A DNA stretch of 64,000 nucleotides, from assembly GCF_000374465.1 (NCBI RefSeq), contig NZ_KB894531.1, positions 186,001-250,000 on the forward strand. Direction: 5' to 3'. The position numbers were made by a program, and so were the translations under genes. This document shows positions 22,446 through 31,651 of the stretch, in pieces. The notes beneath the pieces are model-generated. The model ran no database searches. It worked only from the letters and a program-made list of their open reading frames with translations, and was not told where the DNA came from. The number at the start of each line of letters is the position of its first letter. Position 1 is the first letter of the stretch. Origin of the DNA: Ahrensia kielensis DSM 5890 (GTDB lineage Bacteria; Pseudomonadota; Alphaproteobacteria; Rhizobiales; Rhizobiaceae).

Positions 22446-22889
22446 TTCCTAACAACGATCAGTTTCGTCTCTACGAGCGATTTTGCCTTGTGGATAAAGA
22501 TGTGCGTAAAAAATAGCGAATCATAGGCTGGCCTTCGAGCCTGTGAACTAAATGGTTTTTATCCCAGTTCACACTTATCTTTACGTTTTTATGTAGCTGT
22601 TTAAAACACACAGCATATACATTTAATTCCACAGCTTATGCACAGAGTTATACAATGTGCGCTTTACTTGATTTATCTTTGAATAGTTTGAAAACAATGC
22701 GATTTTCGAGCTGCGTCAATTTTGACCGACAAAAATGTTGTTGAATGTGTATATTATTTTAAACAGGGGGATAAATGGCCTTCTGTCTGTGAATAATTCT
22801 GTTTCCCCACAAATCACAGACTCTAAATAAGAATAGATTCAAAAAAATGATTTCTTCTTTAAAGAGGGATCGATGAAAGTGAGTAAATC
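22446..22889. other. oriC: Candidate chromosomal origin of replication (oriC)
   Basis: Gap of about 440 bases between maf and hemE, AT-rich, with no gene. Its position next to hemE is where alphaproteobacterial origins have been mapped (Caulobacter, Sinorhizobium). On the sequence: an exact DnaA box TGTGGATAA at 22489-22497, and single-mismatch copies TTATGCACA at 22636-22644 and TGTGAATAA at 22788-22796; weaker ones at 22501-22509 and 22559-22567. Three GANTC sites (22518, 22819, 22836) could be methylated by CcrM. The stretch 22741-22870 is the most AT-rich and could be the unwinding element. Genes on both sides read away from it. I saw no TTAA-N7-TTAA CtrA site. Confidence 0.75.
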
Positions 22890-23917: not shown

Positions 23918-24460
23918 ATGTCTGAAATTGATTCGACTTCGAAACAATCTGGAAAAAAGGCAGGGATTAGAGCTGCCATCGCAATTTCTATATTCGTAGT
24001 GATTGGTTTTTTATTGTGGCTTGCTGGTCCTGCTGATCGATATCTCTGGCTTAAAGCTTTGCATGTGATCGCAATTATTTCGTGGATGGCAGGCCTTGTC
24101 TATTTGCCGCGTCTATTTGTTTATCATAGTGATGCTGAAAAAGGCTCAGTTCAATCTGAAACCTTTAAAGTTATGGAAAGGCGCCTCATGAAAATAATCA
24201 TGACGCCGGCTATGATTATCGCATGGGTTCTGGGTCTATGGCTTGCTTATGCAGCTGGTTATTTTACGGCTCCTTGGTTTCACATGAAGCTTCTAGCTGT
24301 TGTTTTATTATCTGGTGTTCATTCTTTTTATGCAGGTGCGGTGAAGAAATTTGCTGCTGATTTGAACGATAAAACTGCGCGCCAATGGCGTATGTACAAT
24401 GAAATTCCTACAGTTTTGATGATTTTCATCGTTATTATGGTCATTGTAAAACCATTTTGA
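23918..24460 (+). CDS. hemJ: Protoporphyrinogen oxidase HemJ
   Basis: Membrane-bound protoporphyrinogen IX oxidase of the HemJ (UPF0093) type, the penultimate step of haem synthesis. About four to five hydrophobic segments; the conserved histidine-containing first motif is LKALHVIAIISWMAGLVYLPRLFVYH, with RRLMKIIMTPAMI and FHMKLLAVVLLSGVHSFY following. Lysine-rich cytoplasmic N-terminus of about 18 residues. 180 residues. Directly after hemE, supporting the assignment; a terminator follows. Confidence 0.92.
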   Translation: MSEIDSTSKQSGKKAGIRAAIAISIFVVIGFLLWLAGPADRYLWLKALHVIAIISWMAGLVYLPRLFVYHSDAEKGSVQSETFKVMERRLMKIIMTPAMIIAWVLGLWLAYAAGYFTAPWFHMKLLAVVLLSGVHSFYAGAVKKFAADLNDKTARQWRMYNEIPTVLMIFIVIMVIVKPF

Positions 24461-25950: not shown

Positions 25951-27255
25951 ATGGATACTATAGTTGCCCTTTCATCTGGCAGTTTGCCTTCAGGCGTTGC
26001 GATTATTCGTATATCAGGACCCAAAGCTGCAACAGTGATTAGTGCTTTGGGCGCACGCATTACACAGCCCCGCCAAACCTCCCTACAAATCTTTCGTGAC
26101 AATGATGGTTCAGTGATCGATGAGGGCTTAGTCCTTTGGTTTCCTGCACCGCATAGTTTTACTGGTGAAGACGTTGTAGAACTTCAAACGCATGGTAGCC
26201 GTGCCGTTGTTGCAGGTATTCTTGATGTTTTGCTCAGCATTGATGGGGTTCGTCATGCGGAAGCTGGTGAATTTGCTCGCCGCGCATTTGCCAATGGTAA
26301 GATTGATCTGACTGAGGCTGAAGGGCTTGCTGATCTGATTGATGCGGAAACGACAGCCCAGCGCAAAGTTGCTCAATATCTAGCAAGCGGCGGTTTAAAA
26401 GACCTTTATAATGATTGGCAGGACCAGCTCTTAAATGCGCGTGCAATGATCGAAGCAGATATCGATTTTGCTGATGAAGATGATGTTCCAGGTTCCGTTG
26501 CAGACCAAGTCTGGAATGATATGGCAAAATTATATCACTCTATTTCTGCGCATCTTGAGGGCTATGATCGTTCAGAGCGTATCCGCGATGGTTTTAAAAT
26601 TAGCCTCATTGGAAAACCCAATGTTGGTAAATCAAGTTTATTGAATGCTCTGGCTGGCAGTGACCGTGCCATTGTTTCTAGCGAAGCGGGTACTACGCGG
26701 GACATTGTTGAAGTTCGGTTGGATATTGCGGGCTACCTTGTTTTGCTTAGTGATACGGCAGGGATCAGAGAACAAGCAGGCAGCGTAGAAGCTGAAGGTA
26801 TTCGTCGTTCTATCGCGTCGGCTCAAGAGGCAGACCTTATTTTGTTCTTAAGCGATGAGGATGAATGGCATCATGATTTCATCAACGCGAATTCTAAAGT
26901 TCTCAATATTCGATCTAAGGCTGATCTAAGTTCGAATATCAAACCCGATGAAGATACAATCTTTGTAAGCGTTAATGACGCTGCTTCCGTTACTTCGCTA
27001 TTAGAGAAACTGTCCGCTATTATTAGTATTGAGCTTGATCAGTCTCGTATAGGCTCTGCTATTAAGTCCCGATACATCGATCATCTATCTCAGTGTTTAA
27101 AAGATTTGAATAAATCGATTGAGAGCGTTGACGCTCTTGAACTGCGCGCTGAGCATTTACGGTCGGCTGCCTATAGCCTTGGACGTATTACCGGACAATT
27201 TGATACAGAAGATGTGCTAGGGCGCATATTCTCGTCATTTTGTATAGGTAAGTGA
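25951..27255 (+). CDS. mnmE: tRNA uridine modification GTPase MnmE
   Basis: With MnmG makes the 5-carboxymethylaminomethyl group on U34 of several tRNAs. N-terminal tetrahydrofolate-binding domain (VALSSGSLPSGVAIIRISGP, TGEDVVELQTHGS), then the GTPase: G1 GKPNVGKSSLLNALAG near residue 218, G2 TTRD, G3 DTAGIRE, G4 as RSKAD instead of the usual NKxD, and the C-terminal CIGK with the essential cysteine. 434 residues. The stop codon lies inside the first parS-like site. Confidence 0.95.
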   Translation: MDTIVALSSGSLPSGVAIIRISGPKAATVISALGARITQPRQTSLQIFRDNDGSVIDEGLVLWFPAPHSFTGEDVVELQTHGSRAVVAGILDVLLSIDGVRHAEAGEFARRAFANGKIDLTEAEGLADLIDAETTAQRKVAQYLASGGLKDLYNDWQDQLLNARAMIEADIDFADEDDVPGSVADQVWNDMAKLYHSISAHLEGYDRSERIRDGFKISLIGKPNVGKSSLLNALAGSDRAIVSSEAGTTRDIVEVRLDIAGYLVLLSDTAGIREQAGSVEAEGIRRSIASAQEADLILFLSDEDEWHHDFINANSKVLNIRSKADLSSNIKPDEDTIFVSVNDAASVTSLLEKLSAIISIELDQSRIGSAIKSRYIDHLSQCLKDLNKSIESVDALELRAEHLRSAAYSLGRITGQFDTEDVLGRIFSSFCIGK

Positions 27256-27268
27256 TTCACGTGAAACA
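27253..27268. other. parS: parS-like site 1 (one mismatch, carries GATTC)
   Basis: TGATTCACGTGAAACA differs from the parS consensus TGTTTCACGTGAAACA only at the third base. The change creates a GATTC (GANTC) methylation site at 27254-27258. It overlaps the mnmE stop codon. Confidence 0.8.
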
Positions 27269-27284
27269 TTACGGCGAGTTTTCG

Positions 27285-27300
27285 TGACTCACGTGAAACA
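27285..27300. other. parS: parS-like site 2 (two mismatches, carries GACTC)
   Basis: TGACTCACGTGAAACA matches the consensus in 14 of 16 bases, with an intact right half. It has the same third-base T to A change as site 1 and so also carries a GANTC site, GACTC at 27286-27290. Centre to centre it is exactly 32 bases from site 1. Confidence 0.7.
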
Positions 27301-27323
27301 TTTTCCATAATAAATTCTCTAAT

Positions 27324-27339
27324 TGTTTCACGTGAAACA
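27324..27339. other. parS: parS site 3 (exact consensus)
   Basis: TGTTTCACGTGAAACA is an exact 16-base palindrome identical to the bacterial parS consensus bound by ParB. It lies in the mnmE-mnmG gap, 39 bases from site 2 and about 3.4 kb from parB. Confidence 0.95.
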
Positions 27340-27404
27340 TAAGAGCCTTGACCTGTGTGTCGATAAGAGTCATTCAACACCTATTCCTAACTTGCGGTAT
27401 TTTT

Positions 27405-29264
27405 ATGCATTACGATGTTATTGTTATTGGCGGCGGTCACGCTGGCTGTGAGGCGGCTCGTGCTAGTGCTGCGCTCGGGGCTAAGACGGCGCTCGCCACC
27501 CATTCCTTCGATACGGTTGGTGTGATGTCTTGTAATCCTGCCATTGGCGGGCTGGGCAAGGGGCACCTTGTACGTGAGATTGACGCTCTCGATGGCTTGA
27601 TGGCGCGTGTTGCTGATAGATCAGGTATTCAGTTTAGAATGCTTAATCGCAAAAAAGGTCCAGCGGTGCGTGGTCCACGTACTCAGTCTGATCGCAAGCT
27701 TTATAGAGAGGCGATGCAAGCGGAGATTCGCGCTGTTGAGGGTCTTTCTATTTTAGAGGGTGAAGTCATTGATCTGTCGCAGGATAGTTCGGGCGCGATT
27801 AATGGTATTAAATTGGCAGATGGTACGCATGTATCTTGCGGCGCTGTTGTTTTAACGACAGGAACATTTCTGCGCGGTCTTATTCATATCGGGGATAAAA
27901 GATTTCCGGCCGGAAGGATGGGAGAAAAGGCGAGTACTTTACTCGCTTATCGTCTGACTAAACTGAACGTGCCCCTTGGCCGTTTGAAAACAGGAACGCC
28001 GCCCCGTCTTGATGGACGTACAATCGATTGGAAAATTCTTGATCTGCAAAGCGCTGATGAAGAGCTTGTTCCATTTTCATCGATGACTGATGAAATTCGT
28101 GTTCCGCAGATTGATTGCGGCATCACACGCACGACCCAGAAAACGCACGATCTCATTCGTGAGAATCTAAATCGCTCGGCGATGTACTCTGGTAATATTA
28201 GCGGCACAGGTCCGCGTTATTGTCCATCGGTAGAAGATAAGATTGTCAAATTTGGCGACCGTGATGGGCACCAAATTTTTCTTGAGCCGGAAGGTTTGGA
28301 TGATCACACCGTATATCCAAATGGCATTTCTACGTCTTTGCCTGAAGATGTGCAGTGGGCAATGATGAAAACTATCCCTGGGCTAGAGAATGCGCAAATT
28401 TTACAGCCAGGCTACGCCATCGAGTATGACCACGTTGATCCTAAAGCTCTCGACCAATCTCTAAACTTGGTCGGTACGCTGGGCCTTTATTTGGCTGGAC
28501 AAATCAATGGCACAACAGGTTATGAAGAAGCTGGCGCACAAGGTTTGGTTGCTGGCATTAACGCTGCACACTTTGTTGGCCAAAAAGCGCCTGTGCATTT
28601 TAGCCGTACATCATCCTATATCGGCGTAATGATTGACGATCTAACATCGCGCGGTGTGAGCGAGCCTTACCGTATGTTTACGTCTCGGGCTGAATATCGG
28701 CTTTCATTGCGCGTTGATAATGCGGATATGCGCTTGTCGCCACTTGCTGTGGAAATTGGTTTGGCATCTTCCGAACGTGCTGCTCATTTTGAGGATGTTA
28801 AGACGCGCTTAGATGATGCGCGTGTAGCTTTGAAGAGCAAAACGCTGACGCCTCAAGAAGCGGGCAAACACGATATTGCTTTGAATATGGATGGCGTCAG
28901 ACGTAGCGGTTATGATCTTCTTTCTTATGCTACGATTGAGCTGCCCGATTTATTGCGTGTTTGGCCTGAGCTTGAACAGTTTGATGGCGATACTTTAGAT
29001 CGTCTTGCTATTGAAGCGCATTATGCGGTTTATATGGATAGGCAAAAGGCTGATATTGAATCTGTGCGGCGTGATGAAAATCTTCTCATTCCAGCGGGTA
29101 TAGAGTTTAACACTATCGCCGGTCTTTCTAATGAGCTCCGCAATAAGCTGAATGATAGACAACCAAAGAGCATTGCCGAGGCGCAACGTATCGAAGGCAT
29201 GACTCCTGCTGGCATTGCATTGATTATCGCGCAAATTCGCAAACAACAGAAATCAGCTGCTTGA
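27405..29264 (+). CDS. mnmG: tRNA uridine modification enzyme MnmG (GidA)
   Basis: FAD-dependent partner of MnmE. It begins [20 protein letters not shown] with the FAD-binding loop at residues 8-13; [26 protein letters not shown] and GRMGE are family signatures, and the C-terminal helical domain that meets MnmE is present. I start at ATG 27405 (619 residues) because the flavin-binding strand begins there; the open frame extends 19 codons upstream to an ATG at 27348 without conservation. Two bases separate its stop region from rsmG, so both are cotranscribed. Confidence 0.95.
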
Positions 29265-29265
29265 T

Positions 29266-29886
29266 ATGGACCGTAAATTATTAAATGGCGCGCTGAATGT
29301 TTCACGTGAAACTATGCAGCGCTTAATCGCATTTGAGACCTTGTTTGAACAATGGTCGAAGCGGATCAACCTCATTGCAGATTCAACAAAGGGTGAAATC
29401 TGGCAGCGTCATATAGAAGACAGTGCGCAGTTATTACTCATAAAGCCAGATATGCGACATTTGGTTGATATTGGTTCTGGTGGTGGATTTCCCGGTATCG
29501 TTCTAGCGGCCATGCTCGAAGATGTTGATGGCTCGCGCGTGGATCTGGTTGAGAGCAATCGGAAAAAAACAGCATTTTTGATGGCAGCGAAGGCGCAATG
29601 CGCGCGCAGTGTAAATATACACTCAAAACGTATTGAAGATGCGCTGCCTGCTATTCAAACACCAGATTATGTCACAGCGCGCGCACTTGCAGCGCTTCCA
29701 AAATTGTTTGAGCTAACACAATGCCATTTATCAAATGGCGCTGTGGGACTTTTTCACAAAGGACGTGGATACCGTGAAGAGTTGGAAGAAAGCCATGCCA
29801 ATTGGGACTTTGATCTGGTAATACATAAAAGTAGAATAGGCACGGAATCGGTCATTCTCGAGATTGCAAATCTAAAGCGCAAATAG
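29266..29886 (+). CDS. rsmG: 16S rRNA m7G527 methyltransferase RsmG (GidB)
   Basis: S-adenosylmethionine-dependent methylation of 16S rRNA G527; loss gives low-level streptomycin resistance. The SAM site LVDIGSGGGFPGIVLA and LVESNRKKTAFL are typical, with KRINLIADSTKGEIWQRHIEDSAQL before it. 206 residues. It starts one base after the mnmG stop, and a parS-like site lies inside its first codons, where it encodes NVSRET. Confidence 0.95.
   Translation: MDRKLLNGALNVSRETMQRLIAFETLFEQWSKRINLIADSTKGEIWQRHIEDSAQLLLIKPDMRHLVDIGSGGGFPGIVLAAMLEDVDGSRVDLVESNRKKTAFLMAAKAQCARSVNIHSKRIEDALPAIQTPDYVTARALAALPKLFELTQCHLSNGAVGLFHKGRGYREELEESHANWDFDLVIHKSRIGTESVILEIANLKRK
29298..29313. other. parS: parS-like site 4, inside rsmG
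   Basis: TGTTTCACGTGAAACT matches the consensus in 15 of 16 bases (last base only). It lies in the coding sequence of rsmG, codons 11-16, about 600 bases before parA. Confidence 0.85.
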
Positions 29887-29909: not shown

Positions 29910-30698
29910 ATGGGTCAATCCACACGGATTATAACCATTGCCAACCAAAAGGGCGGCGTAGGAAAAACGACGACTGCGATTAATTTGGCAACGGCTTTGG
30001 CTGCCATTGGCGAAAGCGTTTTGATCGTTGATGTCGACCCGCAAGGCAATGCCAGCACGGGCCTTGGCATTGAACGTGATGACCGCGAAGTGTCTTCTTA
30101 TGAGATATTGCTCGGTGAAGCTTCGATTTCAGAAGCCACCATTCAGACGGCGGTTCCGAATTTATCTATTGTGCCTTCAACGATGGATTTGCTTGGCGTA
30201 GAAATGGAAATCGCATCAGCAGCTGACCGTGTTTTTCGTTTGAAAAATGCTCTGCGTGCGCAAGATGGTCAATTTGGCTATGTTATCATTGATTGTCCAC
30301 CATCTCTTAATTTGCTGACGCTTAACGCTATGGCCGCAGCTGATTCGCTATTAGTGCCATTACAGTGTGAGTTCTTTGCGCTTGAAGGTTTGAGCCAGCT
30401 TCTCAAAACCGTTGAACAGGTGCGCGGTTCGGTGAATAAAAATTTGGGCATTCAGGGCATTGTTATGACGATGTATGATGGCCGTAATAATTTAGCCAAC
30501 CAGGTTGTTGATGATGTGCGGGCGCATATGGGCGCTAAGGTTTACAAAACTGTGATACCGCGCAACGTGCGGCTTTCTGAAGCGCCGTCTTATGGCAAGC
30601 CAGCAATTTTGTATGATCTTGCTTGCAGCGGCAGCCAAGCCTATCTCAATTTGGCTTCTGAAGTGATTCAAAGAGAGCGTCAGAGCAAAGCTGCATAA
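29910..30698 (+). CDS. parA: Chromosome partitioning ATPase ParA
   Basis: Walker-type ATPase that moves ParB-bound origins. Deviant Walker A NQKGGVGKTTTAINLATAL near residue 13 with both lysines, Walker A' VDVDPQGNASTGLG, Walker B VIIDCPPSLNLLTLNAM, and RNVRLSEAPSYGKP. 262 residues, chromosomal type without the N-terminal DNA-binding domain of plasmid ParA. Followed by parB after 62 bases. Confidence 0.97.
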   Translation: MGQSTRIITIANQKGGVGKTTTAINLATALAAIGESVLIVDVDPQGNASTGLGIERDDREVSSYEILLGEASISEATIQTAVPNLSIVPSTMDLLGVEMEIASAADRVFRLKNALRAQDGQFGYVIIDCPPSLNLLTLNAMAAADSLLVPLQCEFFALEGLSQLLKTVEQVRGSVNKNLGIQGIVMTMYDGRNNLANQVVDDVRAHMGAKVYKTVIPRNVRLSEAPSYGKPAILYDLACSGSQAYLNLASEVIQRERQSKAA

Positions 30699-30760: not shown

Positions 30761-31651
30761 ATGGCAGACGATAATTCTCGTAAGAGACTGGGCCGCGGTT
30801 TAGCTGCATTGATTGGCGAAATGGATCAGCCTGCAGAATCAAATCAGGCGAAACCTGTTGCCTCTGATCGTATGATACCTATTGAGTTGGTTGTTCAGAG
30901 TAAAAACAACCCACGGCGTTTCTTTGCCGATAGCGAAATTGATGAACTTGCGCATTCGATCAAAGAGCATGGCATTATTCAGCCGATTGTTGTGCGTCCA
31001 GTGGCCAATGATAATGCTGGCCGCCATGAAATTATTGCCGGTGAACGTCGCTGGCGCGCTTCTCAGCGTGCAGGCCTGACAGAAGTTCCTATCATTATCC
31101 GTGATGTGGATGACAAAGCAGCGCTTGAACTTGCTATTATCGAGAACGTACAGCGTTCGGACCTCAATGCGATTGAAGAAGCGTTGGGTTATCAACAATT
31201 GATGGATGAGCATGGCTACACACAGGCTGATCTTGGTGACGTGATCGGCAAGAGCCGCAGCCATGTTGCAAATACGCTTCGCTTATTGAAATTGCCGCAA
31301 GGCGTTCAATCTCTGGTGAGCGAAGGCACGTTATCTGCTGGCCATGCACGTACCGTCGTTACGGCTTCCGATCCCGATTCGCTTGCGAAACGAATCGTAA
31401 ATGAAGGGCTTTCTGTGCGCCAAGCCGAAGCTCTTGCGAATGATTCAGGCAATGCGTCGAGAAAACCAAAGCCGAGTTCAAGTGAACAAGGAAAAGATGC
31501 TGACACATTGGCGCTTGAAAAGATGCTGAGTGATACAACTGGTTACCGTGTTGAGATTACACATGGTGCGAAGGGCGGCCAGGTTAAGATCGCTTATAAA
31601 GATCTTGAGCAATTGGATGCTTTGTGTCGTTTGCTTCAGCGGCAGTCATAA
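30761..31651 (+). CDS. parB: Chromosome partitioning protein ParB
   Basis: CTP-dependent DNA clamp that loads at parS and spreads. N-terminal KRLGRGLAALIGEM (ParA-interacting), CTPase motif GERRWRASQRAGL, helix-turn-helix TQADLGDVIGKSRSHVANTLRLLKLP at about 155-180, and the C-terminal dimer domain. 296 residues. The four parS-like sites 1.4-3.5 kb upstream are its expected targets. Confidence 0.97.
   Translation: MADDNSRKRLGRGLAALIGEMDQPAESNQAKPVASDRMIPIELVVQSKNNPRRFFADSEIDELAHSIKEHGIIQPIVVRPVANDNAGRHEIIAGERRWRASQRAGLTEVPIIIRDVDDKAALELAIIENVQRSDLNAIEEALGYQQLMDEHGYTQADLGDVIGKSRSHVANTLRLLKLPQGVQSLVSEGTLSAGHARTVVTASDPDSLAKRIVNEGLSVRQAEALANDSGNASRKPKPSSSEQGKDADTLALEKMLSDTTGYRVEITHGAKGGQVKIAYKDLEQLDALCRLLQRQS

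Follow-up and report, generated by a model that had tools for sequence, protein, structure and literature searches.

The 64,000-nucleotide stretch of the Ahrensia kielensis DSM 5890 genome analyzed here (contig NZ_KB894531.1, positions 186,001 to 250,000; hereafter the window) carries four parS-like palindromes, designated parS1 to parS4, close to the partition genes parA and parB. These four sites are very probably the chromosomal parS sites of a ParABS system, with parS3 and parS4 as stronger and parS1 and parS2 as weaker members, and two of them are shared with genes, namely parS1 with the end of mnmE and parS4 with the coding sequence of rsmG. The cluster itself is an ordinary representative of the chromosomal ParABS kind. 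The evidence comprises the sites and their rarity, the gene context, the DNA-contacting residues of ParB, the fixed codons of the rsmG-embedded site and the joint change of sites in part of the genomes compared. Papers referred to by PMC number are cited from excerpts of their text.

The four parS sites and their ParB

All four sites were located on the plus strand by a motif scan with the palindromic consensus TGTTTCACGTGAAACA, which has one exact match, two matches with one mismatch and one with two mismatches in the window. parS1 (TGATTCACGTGAAACA, 27253..27268) agrees with the consensus at 15 of 16 positions and overlaps the stop codon of mnmE. The weakest match, parS2 (TGACTCACGTGAAACA, 27285..27300), agrees at 14 of 16, both mismatches falling in its left half. 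parS3 (27324..27339), located in the gap between mnmE and mnmG, is exact, and parS4 (TGTTTCACGTGAAACT, 29298..29313), located within rsmG, scores 15 of 16, deviating at the last base alone; an exact 14-bp core within it encodes V12-S13-R14-E15-T16. GTGAAA of the right half is common to all four sites, and parS1 and parS2 have this half (GTGAAACA) perfect; changes in the left half are confined to these two, parS3 and parS4 having it intact. The initial annotation had reported the same positions and match counts and the crowding of three sites into 87 bases (27253-27339), and all of this was reproduced; it overlooked the overlap with the mnmE stop (27253) and the coding position within rsmG (29298).

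The four sites are not a product of chance. At up to three mismatches the window contains six matches against 0.33 expected from shuffled sequences, and none of 100 shuffles reached six. In the genome of the strain (3,364,770 bases in 13 contigs, the window being C4:186001-250000), the cluster accounts for all three matches that deviate at no more than one position and for four of the five that deviate at no more than two; simple arithmetic with equal base frequencies predicts about 0.04 and about 0.9 sites per genome at these two thresholds, respectively. The crowd of equal sites elsewhere that would have spoken for coincidence is thus missing at up to two mismatches. At up to three, the genomic matches are mostly noise (29 per strand vs. 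20 in a reversed control). The fifth match, at C2:148350 (TTTTTCACGCGAAACA, two mismatches), was considered as an additional parS and is treated as a chance occurrence, about 0.9 such sites being expected per genome. It lies in or near a small open reading frame (ORF) containing FSRET and is probably fortuitous; no partition gene was recognized near it by eye among four ORFs in 3,016 bases, for which no family search was made.

The genes parA and parB are adjacent in the window. parA (29910..30698, plus strand), located directly upstream of parB, was assigned by sequence to the ParA/MinD-type ATPases, and none of the 25 families listed for it reached its curated cut-off. The product of parB (30761..31651, plus strand) matches TIGR00180 with 191.9 bits (cut-off 58.45) and is closely similar to the ParB of Caulobacter (Protein Data Bank entry 6t1f, E 1.2e-72). 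Aligned with the latter are the motifs GERRWRA and ENVQRSDL, which we take to be the cytidine triphosphate (CTP)-binding motifs. In Caulobacter numbering, the window ParB carries Q162, G170, K171, S172, R173, N178, T179, K184, G201 and R204. It has all contact residues listed in PMC7383237 and differs from Caulobacter ParB among them only at position 184; of the two variable positions, T179 is the same in both proteins, whereas K184 replaces Ala of Caulobacter. According to the same source, residue 201 reads position 6 of the site, and R173 and G201 are absolutely conserved in extant ParB.

That these genes and sites form a plasmid-type (repABC) or Noc/NBS system rather than a chromosomal ParABS system is barely conceivable. 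The ParB-superfamily models for RepB and Noc do match the protein, but with 65 bits against a cut-off of 201.5 and 220.4 bits against a cut-off of 315, and R173/G201 in place of the Noc residues Q/R, together with A instead of C at position 6 of the window sites, contradict an assignment to Noc.

As a chromosomal ParABS system, the cluster would be bound by ParB dimers that load with CTP at the 16-bp palindromes and slide over the neighboring few kb; CTP-dependent loading at parS and sliding have been described for ParB (PMC7053999, PMC8367383). ParA would then move the ParB-loaded region, and hence the origin, to the daughter pole. parS3 (27324) and parS4 (29298), with an intact 14-bp core, are predicted to be strong sites, and parS1 (27253) and parS2 (27285), with only the right half perfect, to be weaker ones; this order is predicted because the left half is intact in the first pair and altered in the second. 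In addition, parS1 supplies the mnmE stop codon, and parS4 is read as Val-Ser-Arg-Glu-Thr in RsmG.

Sites shared with mnmE and rsmG

Conservation of the sites was assessed in two samples. The first consists of 80 related loci, 75 of them with mnmE. The second covers the class: 192 genomes of Alphaproteobacteria were searched, 177 yielded an RsmG hit, and 80 of these 177, mostly better-scoring ones, were taken.

mnmE, encoding the tRNA modification GTPase (25951..27255, plus strand; NF003661, 545.7 bits, cut-off 380), ends with the C-terminal residues FCIGK followed by the TGA (27253-27255) with which parS1 starts. Among the 75 related loci with mnmE, a site lies within 15 bp of the stop codon in 71, and its TGA is the stop itself in 49. 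TGATTCACGTGAAACA is found without any change in 68 of the 75, its TGA being the mnmE stop in 46 and directly following another stop, in tandem and in frame, in 11; in the other 11, mnmE ends 4 or 14 bp upstream, and its stop codon no longer depends on the A. The sequence of parS2, TGACTCACGTGAAACA, recurs identically in Ahrensia marina (L011) and in a metagenome-assembled genome (MAG) of Hoeflea (L081). Across the class, a site with at most two mismatches is present at the mnmE stop or upstream of mnmG in 59 of 80 loci.

These data bear on an explanation that we consider unlikely, though worth keeping in mind, namely that only parS3 and parS4 act, while parS1 and parS2 are decayed and kept by chance or, in the case of parS1, partly through the mnmE stop. 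Both sites deviate in the left half-site, and two of the seven putative sites of Caulobacter were bound weakly (PMC5815017). Against this, TGATTCACGTGAAACA persists even in the 11 loci where its role as a stop is gone, and the second half GTGAAA is constant in the Caulobacter sites too (PMC5815017).

The 71 related loci that have a site at the mnmE stop as well as a canonical intergenic one separate the two by 36-86 bp in 62 cases and by 119-836 bp in nine. Close packing is therefore common, and the geometry is not fixed. A ParB array at 27253-27339 that is cooperative and geometrically phased, as suggested by three sites in 87 bp and by the prevalence of the shorter distances, is quite improbable in view of the spacing, which varies throughout the shorter range and is larger still in the other nine loci. 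The initial annotation had proposed a cooperative ParB nucleation center near parAB and a candidate origin; the nucleation center is well founded in the rarity of the motif, the surrounding genes, the contact residues of ParB and conservation, while cooperativity finds no support in these distances.

The second shared site resides in rsmG (gidB; 29266..29886, plus strand; TIGR00138, 126.2 bits, cut-off 99.5), which codes for the 16S rRNA m7G527 methyltransferase. Of the 80 related loci, 76 carry an in-frame rsmG site. In the class-wide sample, 74 of the 80 loci have one with at most two mismatches in the N-terminal region of rsmG, at the same residue in 70 of these 74. In a MAG of Pelagibacteraceae (L082), the rsmG-embedded site is the sole parS detected in 13.8 kb by a plus-strand scan at up to two mismatches.

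The codons of this site are fixed far beyond ordinary usage. Every VSRET in the rsmG frames was counted, and the expected number was based on how mnmG and rsmG of the same loci use their codons. The peptide occurs in 69 of the 80 class-wide loci, 78 times in all, and is written GTT-TCA-CGT-GAA in 75 of the 78 cases, against 0.54 expected. A count of sites picked by their likeness to parS gave a similar picture (65 of 68 vs. 0.43; 35 of 36 vs. 0.009 where the G+C content of third codon positions exceeds 0.7); since these sites had been chosen by their DNA, it was replaced as the main evidence by the count of all VSRET occurrences. In the alignment of the 80 loci, V, S, R and E are each encoded by one codon in 93-100% of cases, compared with 32-69% in the equally conserved catalytic DxGSGxGFPG block. 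Neither VSRET nor parS was found at this rsmG position in 13 loci of other classes of the phylum (0/13). Close to the junction of rsmG and parA, three of these carry a parS-like site, and one locus has two sites inside mnmG.

It is very improbable that the rsmG match is a mere by-product of a conserved RsmG peptide, with no parS involved. VSRET is indeed frequent in the class, and its region can still be aligned in the RsmG structures 1jsx and 1xdz, those of Escherichia coli and Bacillus subtilis. However, such an origin would leave the codon lock, not shared by the catalytic residues, unexplained, and VSRET is missing from this position in the 13 loci of other classes. Moreover, a different DNA palindrome goes with a different peptide (VSHET, VSCET, VPRGT, VPRET or VSQET). 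As judged from sequence comparison, this indicates that the DNA site, and not the protein, would set the RsmG residues V-S-R-E-T.

Joint change of the two copies and of ParB

Joint change was counted in the 54 of the 80 class-wide loci in which the rsmG and the intergenic copies both have at most two mismatches. Where the rsmG core is canonical, the intergenic copy is canonical as well in 46 of 48 loci. Of the six loci with a variant rsmG core, four have the same variant upstream of mnmG, one of them as the reverse complement. The RsmG peptide in the variant loci is VSHET, VSCET, VPRGT or VPRET, while the variant GTTTCGCGCGAAAC still encodes VSRET. Two loci outside the 54 would also support joint change: in L145 both copies have CATGTG, the second being too far upstream, and in L135 both cores are GTTCCACGTGAAAC, the rsmG copy having three mismatches.

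The variant GTTTCGCGCGAAAC occurs in both copies in genome G109, together with Ala at ParB position 201. In the order to which G109 belongs, 20 genomes were searched and ten were found to have ParB Ala201. All nine Ala201 genomes with readable sites lack A at parS position 6, while all six Gly201 genomes with readable sites (G192, G194, G196, G199, G209 and G210) keep it. Position 6 is G in both copies in G109, G207 and G208 and T in both copies in G202, G203 and G204, the rsmG copy of G202 being also altered at its center. G200 and G205 have T in one half-site and C in the other, and in G201 the intergenic halves have G and C and the rsmG copy has T. In G201 and G202, the RsmG peptide is VSQET. 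Left out of this count were G206 (Ala201, contig too short), G193 (no ParB match) and G195, G197 and G198 (no readable site). The pattern points to a probable switch of ParB specificity with Ala201. It agrees with the work on ParB/Noc specificity (PMC7383237), in which position 6 is the base read by residue 201; in contrast to the rule stated there, this alphaproteobacterial genus combines Ala201 with G, T or C at that position.

A second ParB substitution, R204K, was considered as the partner of the variant GTTCCACGTGGAAC and is not claimed. Genome G101 fits such a pairing, and two Acidocella loci combine R204K with a related palindrome; on the other hand, G010 has GTTCCACGTGGAAC deep in rsmG together with R204, and in G196 it occurs alongside R204 and Val171. 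Position 171, where ParB of G196 (L226/L279) has this Val, is a conserved contact position, and in the rsmG of this genome GTTCCACGTGGAAC encodes VPRGT. In the Acidocella loci (L085 and L086), where no parS was found at up to two mismatches, the palindrome GCTCCACGTGGAGC is found both ahead of mnmG and immediately behind parB; their ParB carries R204K, and the start of rsmG lacks VSRET.

Taken jointly, these comparisons make it somewhat probable that a centromere site embedded in rsmG occurs across Alphaproteobacteria, with the DNA preference of ParB, rather than the function of RsmG, fixing RsmG residues 12-16. When ParB switches, both copies would change and the peptide would follow; in the genus with Gly201Ala, ParB would have been re-specified to sites bearing G, T or C at position 6. 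With the canonical A and the C of Noc, all four bases would then be in natural use at the position that residue 201 recognizes. Several observations weigh against the explanation of the sites given here. The in-frame rsmG site is absent in four of the 80 related loci (L054, L085, L086 and L089) and, at up to two mismatches, in six of the 80 class-wide loci (L125, L135, L141, L143, L150 and L165), of which L135 has one with three mismatches. In L249, which belongs to the order of the window, rsmG reads VSDDC where the site normally stands and has an exact parS core in frame 96 bp past the start of the RsmG match, the site appearing to have moved within the gene. Because it is missing in some loci and has apparently moved in L249, the rsmG site is not indispensable. 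A variant rsmG core is accompanied by a canonical intergenic site in two of the six variant loci (L161 and L168), and a canonical rsmG site by an altered intergenic copy in L104 and L159. The Ala201 replacement probably represents one event, since it is confined to one genus, and the sampling of mostly better-scoring RsmG hits could favor VSRET. In the window, parS2 may be non-functional, given its two mismatches.

Genomic setting and relation to known systems

The gene order around the cluster, as deduced from the ORF list and NCBIfam, is maf (minus strand), a gap at 22446-22889, hemE, an ORF at 23918-24460, rho, mnmE, mnmG, rsmG, parA and parB. mnmG (gidA; 27405..29264, plus strand) was identified with TIGR00136 (779.6 bits, cut-off 524.85), and its product is 90% identical to MnmG of Ahrensia marina LZD062, the closest named relative found for the window. 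The 444-bp gap between maf (-) and hemE (+) (22446..22889) is 65% A+T and is a plausible candidate for the origin of replication (oriC). It contains one perfect DnaA box (TTATCCACA at 22489, minus strand) and two with one mismatch each (TTATGCACA at 22636, plus strand; TTATTCACA at 22788, minus strand), and the GC skew changes sign there, turning positive. Because of these boxes and the turn of the skew, an origin 4.4 kb from the first parS is plausible, and the distance to oriC given in the initial annotation fits this gap. DnaA-like matches show no excess over the entire window (six vs. 8.56 expected), and no CtrA-type TTAA-N7-TTAA motif was found in the origin gap.

A further conserved site, TGTTTCACGTGAATCC, is located 3.8-5.9 kb upstream of mnmG in 30 of the 80 related loci (among L013-L088), mostly of Brucella/Ochrobactrum and Phyllobacterium. 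Its other strand has A at position 3, like parS1. It is absent from the window at up to two mismatches.

The cluster resembles the ParABS system of Caulobacter crescentus in its grouping of origin-proximal sites, in the constant half GTGAAA and in its closely related ParB; in Caulobacter, too, sites lie inside genes, and the loss of these genes is lethal or costly (PMC5815017). The Caulobacter cluster is located about 8 kb from the origin, and ParB covers about 10 kb around the sites; it differs in having five strong sites in 5 kb, compared with four sites in 2.1 kb here (PMC5815017). Agrobacterium tumefaciens, likewise an alphaproteobacterium, shows enrichment of ParB1 at parS1 in chromatin immunoprecipitation sequencing, with the consensus of Bacillus subtilis; unlike the system described here, it has a multipartite genome with additional RepB/parS2 systems (PMC9239152).

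Sites near gidB (rsmG) are also known from mycobacteria, where a parS motif lies at the 5' end of gidB in Mycobacterium smegmatis, and one parS upstream of gidB and one inside parA are found in Mycobacterium bovis BCG (PMC2346475). Mycobacteria belong to another phylum, and the likeness is taken from their published description. In M. bovis BCG a putative parS overlaps the -10 box of a gidB promoter, and regulation has been proposed (PMC2346475), which raises the question of whether some of the present sites mainly regulate transcription of mnmG, rsmG or parAB through ParB instead of serving segregation. This is improbable: a role in transcription would neither explain the origin-proximal cluster nor exclude segregation. 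Both parS at the 5' end of gidB in a mycobacterium (PMC2346475) and parS inside genes in Caulobacter (PMC5815017) are therefore already known. The excerpts of PMC2346475 contain no analysis of reading frame or codons and no joint change with ParB, those of PMC5815017 neither identify the site-bearing genes of Caulobacter nor take up codons, those of PMC9239152 give no gene context for parS1, those of PMC2099444 do not discuss parS in the rsmG frame, and gidB, gidA and rsmG are absent from the main text of the review PMC7022226. No title or opening of an abstract among the search results dealt with the parS reading frame in rsmG/gidB, its codons or Ala201; priority is uncertain, since the search covered one open-licence library.

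The comparison provides a clear case of one DNA stretch serving as both centromere and coding sequence across a bacterial class. It also offers a natural ParB/parS series for how a DNA-binding protein and its several targets, one of them in an rRNA methyltransferase gene, shift specificity together.

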